Shown piece by piece: positions 56,692 through 60,473 of a DNA stretch of 64,000 nt. Where the stretch lies: positions 149,826-213,825 of the forward strand of contig NZ_LMDG01000023.1 in the NCBI RefSeq assembly GCF_001426265.1, given 5' to 3'. Source of the DNA: Rhizobium sp. Root1220. GTDB taxonomy: Bacteria; Pseudomonadota; Alphaproteobacteria; Rhizobiales; Rhizobiaceae. Every line of letters begins with the position of its first letter. Positions within the stretch are counted from its first letter, which is position 1. The position numbers and the translations under genes are program-made. The notes beneath the pieces are model-generated. The model was not told the origin of the DNA. It ran no database searches and saw only the letters and a list, made by a program, of their open reading frames with translations.

Positions 56692-57615
56692 TCAGCCGGC
56701 CTTGCCGATCTCGTTGAGATCGTAGGACGTCGTTTGGTAGATCTCGTTGATCCAGTTACCAAACAGCAGATGGGCATGGCTGCGCCAGCGGTTGTGGGGT
56801 GCCAGCGCCGGATCGTTGTGTGGGAAGTAGTTGTGCGGCATCTTGATCGGTACGCCCGCATTTACGTCGCGGAAATACTCGTCGGAAAGCGATGTCGAAT
56901 CGTATTCGACATGGTTGAACATATAGAGCCGCCTGCCCTTGCGCTCATGCACGAGGCAGATGCCCATTTCGCTGGATTCCATCAGGACTTCCAGGCTCTC
57001 CGATTTTTCGATGTCGGCGCGGCGCACCTCTGTCCAGCGTGAAACCGGCACTTCGAAATTGTCCGAGAAACCGTTCAGGTAGACGGAGGATGGCTTCAGG
57101 TTGCTGTGACGGTAAACCCCGAAGGCCTTTTCCTTGAGTTCGTACTTCGGAACACCGTGGAAATGGTAGATCGCGGCCATCGCTCCCCAGCACACATTCA
57201 TCGACGAATGGACGTTGGTCTCCGTCCAGTCGAAAATCTGCTGCATTTCACTCCAATAATTGACGTCCTCATAGGGAAGCATCTCTATCGGCGCGCCGGT
57301 GATGATGAAACCATCGAACTTCCGGTGCTTCACTTCCTCCCACGTTTGGTAGAAGGAGAGAAGATGGTCTTCAGAGGTGTTCTTCGCCTTGTGATTTCCG
57401 ACGCGGATGAGCGACAGTTCGACCTGCAGCGGCGACGCGCCGACGAGGCGTGCCATCTGCAGTTCGGTCTTGATCTTGTTCGGCATCAGATTGAGAAGCC
57501 CGATCTGCAGCGGTCGGATGTCCTGACGGATCGCCGCCGTCTCGGTCATCACACGCACACCTTCCTGCACAAGGGTTTCAAAGGCGGGCAGGGTATCGGG
57601 GATCTTGATCGGCAT
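56692..57615 (-). CDS. metA: Homoserine O-acetyltransferase (MetA type)
   Basis: Activates homoserine for methionine synthesis. The 307-residue protein is of the MetA fold with nucleophile Cys142 (NVCWGAM), His in FNHVEYDS and the following Glu. Residue 111 is Glu (ITGAPIE), the residue that marks acetyl-CoA users; Gly at this place marks succinyl-CoA users, so acetylation is predicted. The start is ATG 57615 ([12 protein letters not shown]); a GTG three codons upstream is less likely. A SAM-II riboswitch in the leader controls it. Confidence 0.95.
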
Positions 57616-57665
57616 AGCGGTCACTCGATGAAAAAAACGAAAACATCGCTATCGGTCCGCACGCG

Positions 57666-57721
57666 GCCCTTTAGCAACTTTTTTAACGTGGCTGCAAGCC
57701 GGCCGGCCAAATCACCACGGA
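57666..57721 (-). promoter_or_regulatory. SAM-II riboswitch of metA
   Basis: On the minus strand the leader contains CGTGGTGATTTGG, then CTTGCAGCCACGTTAAA and GCTAAAGGG, the conserved blocks of the SAM-II (metA motif) pseudoknot riboswitch. Stem P1 pairs CGTGG with CCACG. The 3' end is about 51 bases from the metA ATG. S-adenosylmethionine binding is expected to lower metA expression. Confidence 0.93.
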
Positions 57722-57727
57722 GTGGTT

Positions 57728-57756
57728 TAAATAGCCCTAGTCGGGCCGCGAATCAA
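57728..57756 (-). promoter_or_regulatory. Promoter of metA
   Basis: Minus-strand -35 TTGATT (57751-57756), 17-base spacer and -10 TATTTA (57728-57733). A start about seven bases downstream would put the 5' end of the message at the beginning of the riboswitch, as is usual for SAM-II leaders. Confidence 0.65.
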
Positions 57757-57878: not shown

Positions 57879-59705
57879 ATGGCAGATGACGTGAAAGACA
57901 GGCCGAGCATTCAGGGTCAAGACAGGGTCGGATACGACCTGAGCCTGATTTACCGGCTTAAAGTCATGTTTTCCGCGTTCTGGAGTTCTAGGGTGCGTGG
58001 GCGTGTGCTCGTCCTGTCGACGGCCTTGATTGCCGTCATCCTTGCCACGGCCTATGCCACCGTCATCCTCAATCAGTGGAACGCGCCCTTCTATGACAGC
58101 ATCACACGGCGTGATCTGCCGGGGTTCTTCCATCAGTTGAAGGTCTTCGCGGTCATTGCCGGTACGCTGTTGCTGCTTAATGTCATCCAGGCCTGGTTCA
58201 ACCAGATGACGGCGCTCTACATGCGCGAGGGCCTGACGCGAGATCTGGTCGACCAGTGGCTGCAGCGCAAGCGGGCACTTCGGCTGGCATCGAGCGGCCT
58301 CATCGGCGTCAACCCCGACCAGCGCATGCACGAGGACGCGCGCAACCTGGCGGAGAGCACCACCGGCCTCGTGATCGGACTTGTACAGTCGACAATCCTT
58401 CTGGTGAGCTTTATCGGCGTGCTGTGGGAGCTCTCAAGCGGATTCGTCTTCCACTTCGGCACCCATAGCTTTTCCATTCCGGGATATATGGTCTGGGCTG
58501 CGATCTTCTATGCGGCCTCGGCCTCGGTGCTCAGCCAGTTGGTTGGCCGCAAACTCGTCAAGTTGAATGCCGATCGCTTCTCCAAGGAGGCAGAGCTTCG
58601 CTTTGCCCTGATGCACGCCAACGAAAACATACCTGCCATCACCGCTGCGCGCGGCGAGGAAAACGAGCGTGGCCGCATCAATACCGATATCAGTGCGGTC
58701 CTGGCCGTCATCAAGCGGTTGGCAATGGCCACTGTCAACCTGACATGGGTTTCGGCCGGTTACGGCTGGCTCGTTGTCGTCATTCCGATCATCGTCGCGG
58801 CGCCGGCCTATTTTTCGGGCGGACTTACCTTCGGCCAGCTGATGATGTCTGTCGGCGCGTTCAATCAGGTCAATACGGCTCTTCGCTGGTACGTGTCGAA
58901 TTTCGGACCTATTGCCGAATGGCGCGCCACCCTGATGCGCGTCACCGATTTTCGTCAGGCGCTGACCACCATGGGCGACAAAGTCGATCTCAAGGAAATG
59001 ATTGCCTACGAACGAAGCGCGCCCGGTACGCTGACACTCGACCATGTGAGGATCGCCGCCAAAATCGATGAGGAAATCGACCAGTGCGGCGGCTTCCGGT
59101 TGCATGAGACCAGCGTTACGATCAAGGCCGGCGAGAAGGTGATGATCAATGGCGATCACAATATAAACCGCAAGCTGCTTTTCCTTGCGCTCTCCGAACT
59201 ATGGCCCTGCGGCGGAGGCAAGATCGGCTTGCCCCCCGCCGACGATATACTGTTCGTCCCGCAATCCGCCTACATTCCGGGTGGCACGCTTCGCGAGGCG
59301 CTGGCATTCCCGGAGCCCGCGGATACTTACAAGGACGATGATATTCACGCCGCTCTTGAGACGGCGGGGCTGCACAAGCTGATTGCGCGCCTCGACACGC
59401 GTGCGCGCTGGGACAAGCTTCTCGATTCCGACGAGCAGCGGGCGATCGGTTTTGCGCGGTTGCTTCTCGTGCGGCCCCGCTGGGTGGTGTTCGACGAAGT
59501 GCTGGAAGGCATGGAACCGGATTGGCAGTCCACGATGATGAACGTCCTGCTTTCCATGCCGGAGAGCACAATGATCTATATCGGACGTTCCGAAGCGTAT
59601 CTCGAGGCCTTTCAGCCGCGGGTGCTACATCTCGAAGGGCTGGCGGCGAAGCCGGAAGCGAAGGCGCCCGCAAAGGCGCCAAACGCACCAGCACCGGCAC
59701 TCTGA
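57879..59705 (+). CDS. SbmA/BacA-like ABC membrane protein with a degenerate ATPase domain
   Basis: A 608-residue protein of the ABC_membrane_2 (SbmA/BacA, YddA, ExsE) group. The N-terminal ~380 residues hold six membrane helices with the family pattern YATVILNQWNAPFYDSITRRD, NPDQRMHEDARNLAE and PAYFSGGLTFGQLMM. A nucleotide-binding domain follows, but Walker A reads GDHNINRKLL (about residue 425), the signature reads LDSDEQRAIG instead of LSXGEQQR, the D-loop is lost and the switch His is Arg (YIGRSEA, about 566). The Q-loop and Walker B (WVVFDEV) persist. ATP hydrolysis is therefore doubtful. It may be a peptide or lipid transporter; substrate unknown. Confidence 0.85.
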   Translation: MADDVKDRPSIQGQDRVGYDLSLIYRLKVMFSAFWSSRVRGRVLVLSTALIAVILATAYATVILNQWNAPFYDSITRRDLPGFFHQLKVFAVIAGTLLLLNVIQAWFNQMTALYMREGLTRDLVDQWLQRKRALRLASSGLIGVNPDQRMHEDARNLAESTTGLVIGLVQSTILLVSFIGVLWELSSGFVFHFGTHSFSIPGYMVWAAIFYAASASVLSQLVGRKLVKLNADRFSKEAELRFALMHANENIPAITAARGEENERGRINTDISAVLAVIKRLAMATVNLTWVSAGYGWLVVVIPIIVAAPAYFSGGLTFGQLMMSVGAFNQVNTALRWYVSNFGPIAEWRATLMRVTDFRQALTTMGDKVDLKEMIAYERSAPGTLTLDHVRIAAKIDEEIDQCGGFRLHETSVTIKAGEKVMINGDHNINRKLLFLALSELWPCGGGKIGLPPADDILFVPQSAYIPGGTLREALAFPEPADTYKDDDIHAALETAGLHKLIARLDTRARWDKLLDSDEQRAIGFARLLLVRPRWVVFDEVLEGMEPDWQSTMMNVLLSMPESTMIYIGRSEAYLEAFQPRVLHLEGLAAKPEAKAPAKAPNAPAPAL

Positions 59706-59708
59706 CCC

Positions 59709-60332
59709 TTACATCGGCGGGACGACGCCGTTCGTGCCGACGGTGACCTGTGCCGCGGATACGGCGCCATCGGTCGATTTTTCGCCCATGACGATCACGC
59801 GTGCGCCGGGTGTCAGGTCCGTCTTGCCAGCGGGTGCGAAGGTGACGATCGGCGTGTCATCGGCGATGGATATGGTCTTTTCCTTGCCCTGGTAGGTGAG
59901 CGTGATGCTGTGGCCGTTGACGGATTTCACCGCCTTCGCAACGGTGGCATTGGTCATCGTGCTATTCGGCTTCAGGTCCCATGGGCGGCTACCTTCGCCC
60001 GTGCCTTTCATCGCGGCCGGAAAGATCAGAACCTCCAGCGCGCCATCACCGCCGTCCGCGCTCGGCAGCGACGCTACACCAACAAAATCTCCCGGCTTGA
60101 TGTCTTCGACCGAAGCCTTGGCGATGCCAGCGACTTTCCAGCCAGGTTTCAACATGACTGTCTGATCAGCACCCTCTCTTGTCTTGACGACAAGCGTGTC
60201 GCCGCTAAGGCTTTCGATCGCGCCGCGCACGCGCACGCGCTGGGCGTCTTCTGCCGAGGCGGTTTGTGATGCGATGACGAGAATGCCAGCGGCAAGCGCT
60301 GCAGCCATTGAGGTGTTGAATTTGCGGGACAT
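59709..60332 (-). CDS. Periplasmic protein, DUF5666-like
   Basis: A 207-residue exported protein: signal peptide (KFNTSMAAALAAGILVIASQTASA), then two repeats of a small beta domain (RVRGAIESLSGDTLVVKTREG; KAVKSVNGHSITLTYQGKEK) resembling DUF5666 modules. No catalytic motif is seen, and the function is unknown. Its stop lies three bases from the stop of the convergent ABC protein. ATG 60332 follows AAGGAGAAAG. Confidence 0.75.
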   Translation of the reverse strand: MSRKFNTSMAAALAAGILVIASQTASAEDAQRVRVRGAIESLSGDTLVVKTREGADQTVMLKPGWKVAGIAKASVEDIKPGDFVGVASLPSADGGDGALEVLIFPAAMKGTGEGSRPWDLKPNSTMTNATVAKAVKSVNGHSITLTYQGKEKTISIADDTPIVTFAPAGKTDLTPGARVIVMGEKSTDGAVSAAQVTVGTNGVVPPM

Positions 60333-60473
60333 GCTCTTTCTCCTTGCGGTCGCCCCGTGGGCCAGACCGCTCGGCGTCAGCTTAGTCCCGGCGAGCGAAT
60401 GCTGACGAATCAATGAAACGTGAGAGATTGTGCGCCTAAGCGGCGGAACAATTCGGTCGAAGGGGAGGACCGT

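Follow-up and report, generated by a model that had tools for sequence, protein, structure and literature searches.

The 64,000-nucleotide stretch of Rhizobium sp. Root1220 DNA analysed here (the window) carries a gene for an ABC half-transporter whose ATPase domain (NBD) is predicted to be intact in fold, with most of its catalytic motifs replaced. We interpret the product as a conserved ExsE/YddA-type (ABCD-like) inner-membrane transporter that would not hydrolyse ATP and would keep its NBD as a structural or regulatory module, a reading to which we give a probability of roughly two in three. A preliminary description had called it an ABC protein of the SbmA/BacA branch with an eroded ATPase site; that observation was right and understated, in that a conserved protein carries ABC motifs that appear ATPase-dead and its clade, as judged from the sequences, displays a stepwise loss of the motor.

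Table 1 Features of the ABC half-transporter gene in the window; residue numbers are those of the encoded protein.
Feature	Positions	Strand	Basis
ABC half-transporter gene, 608 aa, ExsE/YddA-like, NBD catalytic motifs replaced	57879..59705	+	ORF, ATG 57879 to stop 59705
Membrane domain, residues 20-362 (PF06472/PF05992 region)	57936..58964	+	Profiles, AlphaFold2 model, dN/dS
Coupling helix 1 (presumed), residues 130-138	58266..58292	+	Helix in AlphaFold2 model
Coupling helix 2, residues 251-256	58629..58646	+	AlphaFold2 model; decays in NBD-less relatives
NBD, residues 386-588	59034..59642	+	AlphaFold2, block pLDDT ~83-94
Replaced Walker A, residues 424-434 NGDHNINRKLL	59148..59180	+	Alignment of 110 NBD-bearing loci
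Q-loop region, residues 460-465 VPQSAY	59256..59273	+	Gln in 105/110 rows
Replaced signature, residues 514-522 LLDSDEQRA	59418..59444	+	Alignment of 110 NBD-bearing loci
Walker B (kept) and replaced D-loop, residues 536-548 VVFDEVLEGMEPD	59484..59522	+	Alignment of 110 loci
Replaced switch (H-loop), residues 566-571 IYIGRS	59574..59591	+	Alignment of 110 NBD-bearing loci

The protein matches the Pfam families PF06472 (105.8 bits, cut-off 24.4) and PF05992 (88.4 bits, cut-off 24), both over residues 39–362. The first identifies a membrane domain of the ABCD/YddA/ExsE type, and the two together bear out its placement in the group of SbmA/BacA and YddA/ExsE, although the PF05992 match does not discriminate SbmA/BacA, because the canonical ABC relatives L186, L190 and L198 pass it too. 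ABC_tran (PF00005) is absent from the Pfam matches of the protein at E values up to 1. Across the relatives, the PF00005 score drops broadly in step with motif state: three canonical proteins score 63, 74 and 81 bits, two that keep Walker A score 47 and 34 bits, and of four that lack it three score 37, 18 and 13 bits and one has no match.

The top solved relative by sequence (phmmer) is Rv1819c (6tqe), which aligns with residues 74–587 and covers the NBD; parts of the chain also align with chains of ABCD1, ABCD3, ABCD4, CydC and SbmA. An AlphaFold2 model computed from 34 aligned sequences has a mean pLDDT of 73, rising to about 90 in the NBD and falling below 50 at residues 178–193, 195–209 and 302–328 of the membrane domain. 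Foldseek places Rv1819c first and ABCD1 second for this model, and VIA-align places ABCD1 first; the structural matches have a Z-score of 22.4, an rmsd of 2.9–3.7 and 422–430 aligned residues for ABCD1, and a Z-score of 19.7, an rmsd of 5.6 and 451 aligned residues for Rv1819c (6tqe). The sequence and structure matches therefore indicate the fold of an ABC half-transporter of the ABCD/YddA kind, with a full-length NBD of intact predicted fold, as had been proposed from the sequence. Residues 130–138 are taken by us to be a coupling helix from their position in the membrane domain.

A rebuilt nucleotide pocket under purifying selection

Compared with the consensus GxxGxGK[ST], the Walker A stretch of the window protein has substitutions at G4, G6, the Lys and the S/T position; the signature departs from LSGG[EQ], the D-loop reads VLEGMEPD, and the switch His is Arg (R570). 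These losses, which the preliminary description had listed, can be seen residue by residue. Walker B (FDE; D539, E540) is intact and the Q-loop Gln (Q462) is retained.

The same replacements recur throughout the homologues. The first comparison comprised 111 loci, the window counted in, with identities from 93% down to 54%; 110 of them carry an NBD (L002 is BacA), corresponding to 83 distinct proteins, because some genomes occur twice (L003–L031 and L032–L103 overlap). In all 110 the P-loop Lys is Arg, G6 is Asn, the signature Ser is Asp, the D-loop contains E-G and the switch reads G-R-S, Agrobacterium and Ciceribacter among them; the signature Gly is Asp in 109 and Glu in one, and G4 varies between N, S and G. 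The preliminary description had proposed asking whether homologues share the motif losses, and all 110 of these loci do. A broader clade around the window protein (36 rows, hand-picked from the tree described below) retains this pattern: the P-loop Lys is Arg in 35 and Gln in one, the signature Ser is Asp in 33, Glu in two and Thr in one, the signature Gly is Asp in 31 and Glu in five, and the switch His is Arg in 34, with one Gly and one Gln. The P-loop S/T position, which binds Mg in a working P-loop, is Lys, Arg or His in every one of these rows. That Walker B and the Q-loop are kept holds for the window protein itself, but Asp takes the place of the Walker B Glu in 7 of the 110 near rows (Glu in 103) and in 25 of the 36 broader rows (Glu in 11), and the Q-loop is of average conservation.

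Ranking NBD stretches of equal length by conservation in a thinned set of 32 sequences places the altered switch (566–571) first of 198, the altered Walker A (424–434) second of 193 and the Walker B/D-loop stretch 19th of 191, with the altered signature (96th of 195) and the Q-loop (100th of 198) near the average. NBD residues invariant in 34 aligned rows include N424, G425, N430, R431, E543, G544, E546 and Y567–S571; in ABC proteins, these motif elements line one nucleotide pocket. The word 'eroded' is thus wrong for Walker A and the switch, both of which are conserved in their new form, and the signature stretch is not specially conserved. The former nucleotide pocket was rebuilt and afterwards maintained.

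Selection on the two domains was compared by the Nei–Gojobori method in 75 distinct Rhizobium-type genes, with dS of 0.1–0.8 in both domains. In 32 disjoint pairs the NBD has a median dN/dS of 0.089 and the membrane domain one of 0.020, with the NBD higher in 32 of 32; all 768 pairs within the dS limits give medians of 0.155 and 0.036. Selection is weaker on the NBD than on the membrane domain, yet it is purifying on both, and open frames together with low dN/dS rule out a plain pseudogene, in agreement with the preliminary description. The gene is almost certainly functional.

The ratio of NBD dN to membrane-domain dN is 1.18 in canonical paralogues of genus g68 (15 pairs) and 0.92 in those of Rhizobium (3 pairs). 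The degenerate sets give 1.93 (Walker-A-keepers from the same six species of g68), 1.77 (window type, 3 pairs) and 1.88 (another set that has lost Walker A, 6 pairs). In g68, the NBD dN/dS is nearly equal in degenerate (0.15) and canonical (0.17) proteins; values for the paralogue sets are rough, because some pairs have high dS. The canonical orthologues L186–L188 form an unfair control, since two of the three NBDs are frameshifted.

Distribution, motif series and NBD-less relatives

All 148 genomes of the genus contain a match at an E value of 1e-20 or better, the weakest of which (6.5e-79, in G110, an 82% complete genome) may be a paralogue. The gene adjoins metA in 72 of 72 named Rhizobium/Xaviernesmea loci (L032–L103), 68 of which also have an ABC-F gene nearby. 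None of the eight loci L104–L111 has metA beside the gene, and 3 of 23 further loci, most with short flanks, have it (L121, L123 and L126). L126 is a Walker-A-keeper, which supports orthology of the Walker-A-keeper and window types.

Trees were computed from the membrane domain only, with 158 rows and again with 89 rows and bootstraps. Canonical members are basal in the clade, firmly for L186 (99/99 split) and weakly for L190 (91/56), and along the tree the motif states run from canonical, through Walker A kept with signature and switch lost, to Walker A lost and finally NBD absent. The order of loss read from these sequences is the signature and switch His first, Walker A later and the whole NBD last. 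Among 125 NBD-bearing clade rows, whose state counts are shaped by near-copies and by the choice of rows, GK[STA], SxG[EQ] and the switch His occur jointly in two, GK[STA] survives in 52 that lack the other two motifs, and 69 lack all three. Of the remaining two rows, L142 has its His two positions away from the switch, and L254, placed near the window clade, has a genuine switch His. Well-supported branches force at least six (89-row tree) or at least seven (158-row tree) state changes for the loss of Walker A, and the absence of the NBD needs three, one of them in SbmA/BacA; these counts do not separate gain from loss. SbmA and the BacA of the window's own genome, the sole rows of that family, split off on a long branch (100/100) with the window protein outside. 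Frameshifted NBDs occur in L148, L187 and L188.

The preliminary description had considered the protein a possible evolutionary intermediate between a pump and a proton-driven carrier. The window lineage lies within a series from ATP-driven to NBD-less proteins, and so the intermediate is supported as evolution; proton drive, considered below, is not. Homologues with canonical motifs in sister species, named there as counter-evidence, are absent among the close sisters examined; distant members keep Walker A without signature or switch, and the two canonical rows above belong to the clade.

Relatives that end right after the last membrane helix were found in 15 genomes of 7 genera and fall into two groups: group 1 with three genomes of g62 and one each of g204, g73 and g69 (L150/L203–L208), and group 2 with three of g86, two of g28 and four of g14 (L257–L265). 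The count leaves out the matching g86 and g14 genomes G602, G681, G710 and G686, and one of the four g62 genomes, G518 (87% complete), has no match. In AU tests the two groups are separate from each other (p 0.00084), and a BacA relationship is rejected for group 2 (p 0.0072) and marginally for group 1 (p 0.0486), p values that are optimistic because the first tree had already been seen when the groups were named. The NBD was thus apparently lost twice, independently of SbmA/BacA. The dN/dS of group 2 is 0.02–0.05 (three genera); that of group 1 is relaxed (0.18–0.33), so part of this group may be decaying.

Misassembly or gene splitting does not account for these proteins, as each of the 15 genes closes with a stop codon that is followed by 138 to 4006 bases of sequence (138 for L206 alone, 1461 for the next shortest). 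In the split-gene check, nearly all panel matches fall within the end of the membrane domain, a part contained in the panel sequences, and a few, each shorter than 45 residues, possibly lie beyond it. Genome-wide NBD searches of the 15 genomes found no detached NBD resembling that of the window protein: all matches have at most 38% identity, the best of them belong to frames of full-length ABC proteins, and some weak matches, at E 1e-5 or worse, belong to frames of 219–381 aa, as free-standing ABC ATPases would give. A high-scoring BacA is present in g62, g73, g69 and g14, with a partial match in G524 of g204, and was not found in the group 2 genera g86 and g28.

Coupling helices were scored as conservation against the Walker-A-keeper consensus, compared with the remainder of the membrane domain (2 canonical rows, 53 Walker-A-keepers, 34 other rows that have lost Walker A, 36 of the window clade, 6 and 9 NBD-less and 2 BacA/SbmA). 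For helix 2 the scores are 1.10 (canonical), 0.94 (Walker-A-keepers), 0.92 (other Walker-A-lost), 0.78 (window clade), 0.54 and 0.34 (NBD-less groups 1 and 2) and 0.30 (SbmA/BacA). The corresponding values for helix 1, at 0.79, 0.98, 0.95, 0.80, 0.80, 0.37 and 0.22, are out of step with the series. Neither helix is extreme in the window clade (58 of 310 membrane windows are as low for helix 1 and 33 of 318 for helix 2), ranks that would also fit an NBD that is still coupled. By rank, clearly low values of helix 2 are confined to the NBD-less groups, for which 9 and 17 of the 318 windows are as low, and the NBD of the window clade is therefore probably still docked; docking is an assumption here, because the model shows a monomer and is weak in parts of the membrane domain.

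Energy source and role of the retained domain

In a homodimer, each ATP site would be formed by a Walker A and a signature that are both dead, and hydrolysis would therefore be lost; we consider it very probable that the window protein does not hydrolyse ATP. Becoming proton-driven had been the earlier suggestion, with the glutamates of SbmA as its check. SbmA has a ladder of six (E193, E203, E269, E276, E287 and E378), of which the window protein has three or four: it has Glu at 193, 276 and 378, Thr at 203 and Asn at 269, and position 287 depends on the alignment, being Glu in one and N248 next to E249 in another. Throughout the clade, canonical members included, position 203 is mostly Thr or Ala and 269 mostly Asn, E276 is present in every row counted, and 378 is Asp or Glu in most rows and Gln in six of the nine group 2 rows. 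Because this pattern is nearly equal in the ATP-driven relatives, we see no gain of a ladder; a newly acquired one was found neither in the window protein nor in the NBD-less proteins, and the suggestion is not supported by this check. The link to protons rests on analogy with SbmA (PMC13316013) and LmrA-MD (PMC2704374), and on that analogy gradient-driven or facilitated transport is slightly favoured.

The mechanism that we propose, modelled on SbmA and NBD-truncated LmrA, is one in which the membrane domain would alternate unaided between inward- and outward-open states, driven by gradients of its substrate and/or of an ion, probably the proton. The NBD would remain docked as a structural clamp or regulatory module, a role that we hold to be somewhat more likely than not, and the former pocket (N424-G425, N430-R431, E543-G544-E546, Y567-I568-G569-R570-S571) would act as an internal lock or ligand sensor. 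Reuse of the domain for regulation, the other option of the preliminary description, is a possible role that the conserved new pocket favours, and an NBD this constrained could still bind nucleotide. As a wider and more tentative proposal, a Hyphomicrobiales clade may have made ATP dispensable stepwise (hydrolysis, nucleotide binding, then the domain), may twice have re-created the SbmA architecture, and in Rhizobium may have converted the dead pocket into a binding site for a ligand, or into a lock, by which a gradient-driven transporter is controlled.

In another reading the NBD is a sensor, whose pocket would bind nucleotide or a small ligand but not hydrolyse it, and would gate a transporter or channel. 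This would suit the altered Walker A and switch, which top the NBD stretches in conservation; the 52 clade rows in which the GK[STA] P-loop outlives signature and switch, a class defined by that P-loop, also look as if binding had outlived hydrolysis. This alternative is unlikely, however, given the Arg for Lys and the basic residues at the Mg-binding position in the hand-picked window clade, and given that the NBD has been deleted in a lineage inside or next to that clade whose membrane part is still under selection. Pseudo-active domains can persist for protein contacts, and the protein might be a scaffold or receptor without transport, but this is very unlikely, as the membrane domain is the more constrained part and survives loss of the NBD. 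About as little can be said for ordinary decay, in which an NBD that has lost its use drifts and will be lost: the NBD changes about two to four times faster than the membrane part, some NBDs are frameshifted and loss has apparently occurred twice, yet NBD dN/dS medians of 0.09–0.15 and substitute motifs fixed across genera make it very unlikely.

That the protein is still driven by ATP, with unusual residues doing the catalysis or with a canonical protein as its partner in a heterodimer, is the hardest reading to credit. Walker B is intact in the window protein and keeps its Glu in most near rows, and a canonical paralogue occurs in part of the genus (L299–L301, for instance; L198 and L199 stand for the same genes). 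Against this, the Glu is Asp in most of the broader clade, and PF06472 matches two places in the window's own genome at E 0.01, the gene itself and BacA; this genome has no canonical PF06472 half-transporter, and therefore no ExsE-like partner for a mixed dimer. Even in such a dimer neither ATP site would be complete, because one chain lacks Walker A as well as the signature. We thus retain the reading of a transporter that would work without ATP hydrolysis and keep its NBD for structure or regulation.

Comparison with known systems

One of the closest known counterparts is S. meliloti ExsE, which we take to be the pSymB coding sequence WQO99124.1 in CP140934 (named from its proximity to exsH); the protein is identical in strain 1021. 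ExsE has the same domains as the window protein, with 47% identity over residues 22–585, and its NBD is degenerate too (GDPRAGKT, LGDDEQ, IGR). Unlike the window protein, it keeps the GKT of the P-loop and the Walker B Glu, and it belongs to a sister clade, judged from L234. The gene setting also differs, with metA beside the Rhizobium/Xaviernesmea genes and que genes and regulators beside S. meliloti ExsE.

The ATP-driven type IV ABC proteins YddA, BclA, Rv1819c and ABCD1–4 have architecture and fold in common with the window protein. YddA, Rv1819c and ABCD1 hold the ATP-site motifs, of which the window protein retains Walker B and the Q-loop Gln, the others having been replaced. The heterodimeric exporters TM287/288, BmrCD and MsRv1273c/72c retain one working ATP site per dimer; a window homodimer would, by contrast, have no complete site. 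Degenerate ATP-site motifs in a kept protein are what these exporters and the window protein have in common (see also PMC12038006).

In the portions available of the respective papers, YddA and ExsE are named as closer to Rv1819c than BacA/SbmA are (PMC3603451), and BacA, BclA, ExsE and a Bradyrhizobium clade are classified (PMC12003926). The latter reports that Phyllobacterium zundukense ExsE in an S. meliloti bacA mutant gave intermediate complementation of the gentamicin phenotype and little to none for NCR247; we do not take this as proof of function, and a match on a P. zundukense plasmid is only 31% identical to ExsE. A YddA-like COG4178 match is listed among candidate genes for S. meliloti nodule competitiveness (PMC8407117), a match that we could not link to the ExsE-like family, and the word exsE is absent from the main text of the paper on a minimal pSymB gene set (PMC12239276). 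Among the open papers listed, titles and abstract openings contained no report of degenerate NBDs in ExsE/YddA-like proteins, and the available portions of PMC13316013, PMC12003926 and PMC3603451 do not mention lost ATPase motifs in ExsE-like proteins.

SbmA/BacA proteins are needed by rhizobia in nodules and are an entry door for peptide antibiotics. In the clade described here the intermediates are extant, ordered and countable, and the NBD-less end state has apparently been reached in two further, separate cases. The passage from primary pump to secondary carrier, formerly inferred from trees, thereby becomes testable as to what changes first and what use an NBD has without ATP. Proteins of this clade annotated as 'ABC transporter ATP-binding protein/permease', ExsE included, may not be ATP-driven.

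SbmA itself is argued, in the sections of PMC13316013 available, to derive from a YddA-like ABC transporter by loss of the NBD; those sections mention an R. tibeticum membrane-domain gene with no NBD gene in its operon and, beyond that case, describe no series of intermediates. According to the same sections, SbmA/BacA, the SLiPT family, lacks both NBD and coupling helices and has the full glutamate ladder, whereas the window protein has a full NBD and is 25% identical to the BacA of its own genome. A precedent is LmrA without its NBD, for which part of PMC2704374 reports reversible ethidium–proton symport without ATP. LmrA-MD resembles the NBD-less relatives in being an ABC membrane domain without an NBD, and it works as a secondary transporter; it is engineered and of another subfamily, whereas the NBD-dead and NBD-less forms of the window clade are natural and known from their sequences.

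Genes flanking the ABC half-transporter gene

On one side, a SAM_alpha riboswitch lies upstream of metA, within the gap that separates metA from the ABC half-transporter gene. On the other side, a gene for a secreted-looking protein with a marginal DUF5666 match is placed between the ABC half-transporter gene and an ABC-F gene.

Features flanking the ABC half-transporter gene
Feature	Position	Strand	Match
metA	56692-57624	-	
SAM_alpha riboswitch	57651-57728	-	RF00521, 81.7 bits
Secreted-looking protein	59709-60413	-	DUF5666, marginal (27.2 bits; cut-off 27)

Duplicated copies and broken nucleotide-binding domains among relatives

One genome (G029) encodes the protein type that has lost Walker A twice, at loci L153 and L154. 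Another (G480) carries two copies with membrane parts approximately 98% identical, of which L186 has a canonical nucleotide-binding domain (NBD) and L187 a frameshifted one. The NBD of L188 (genome G303) is also broken, lying in two pieces approximately 0.9 kb apart, which may be an assembly error. In L148 (genome G199), the membrane part is intact and the NBD contains an internal frameshift, with its remnant in another frame.

NBD-less relatives and SbmA/BacA

Proteins that end after the membrane domain, encoded at loci L257–L261 in genera g86 and g28, pass the PF05992 cut-off. No high-scoring BacA was found in the genomes that carry these five loci, and their NBD-less proteins could be mistaken for SbmA/BacA.
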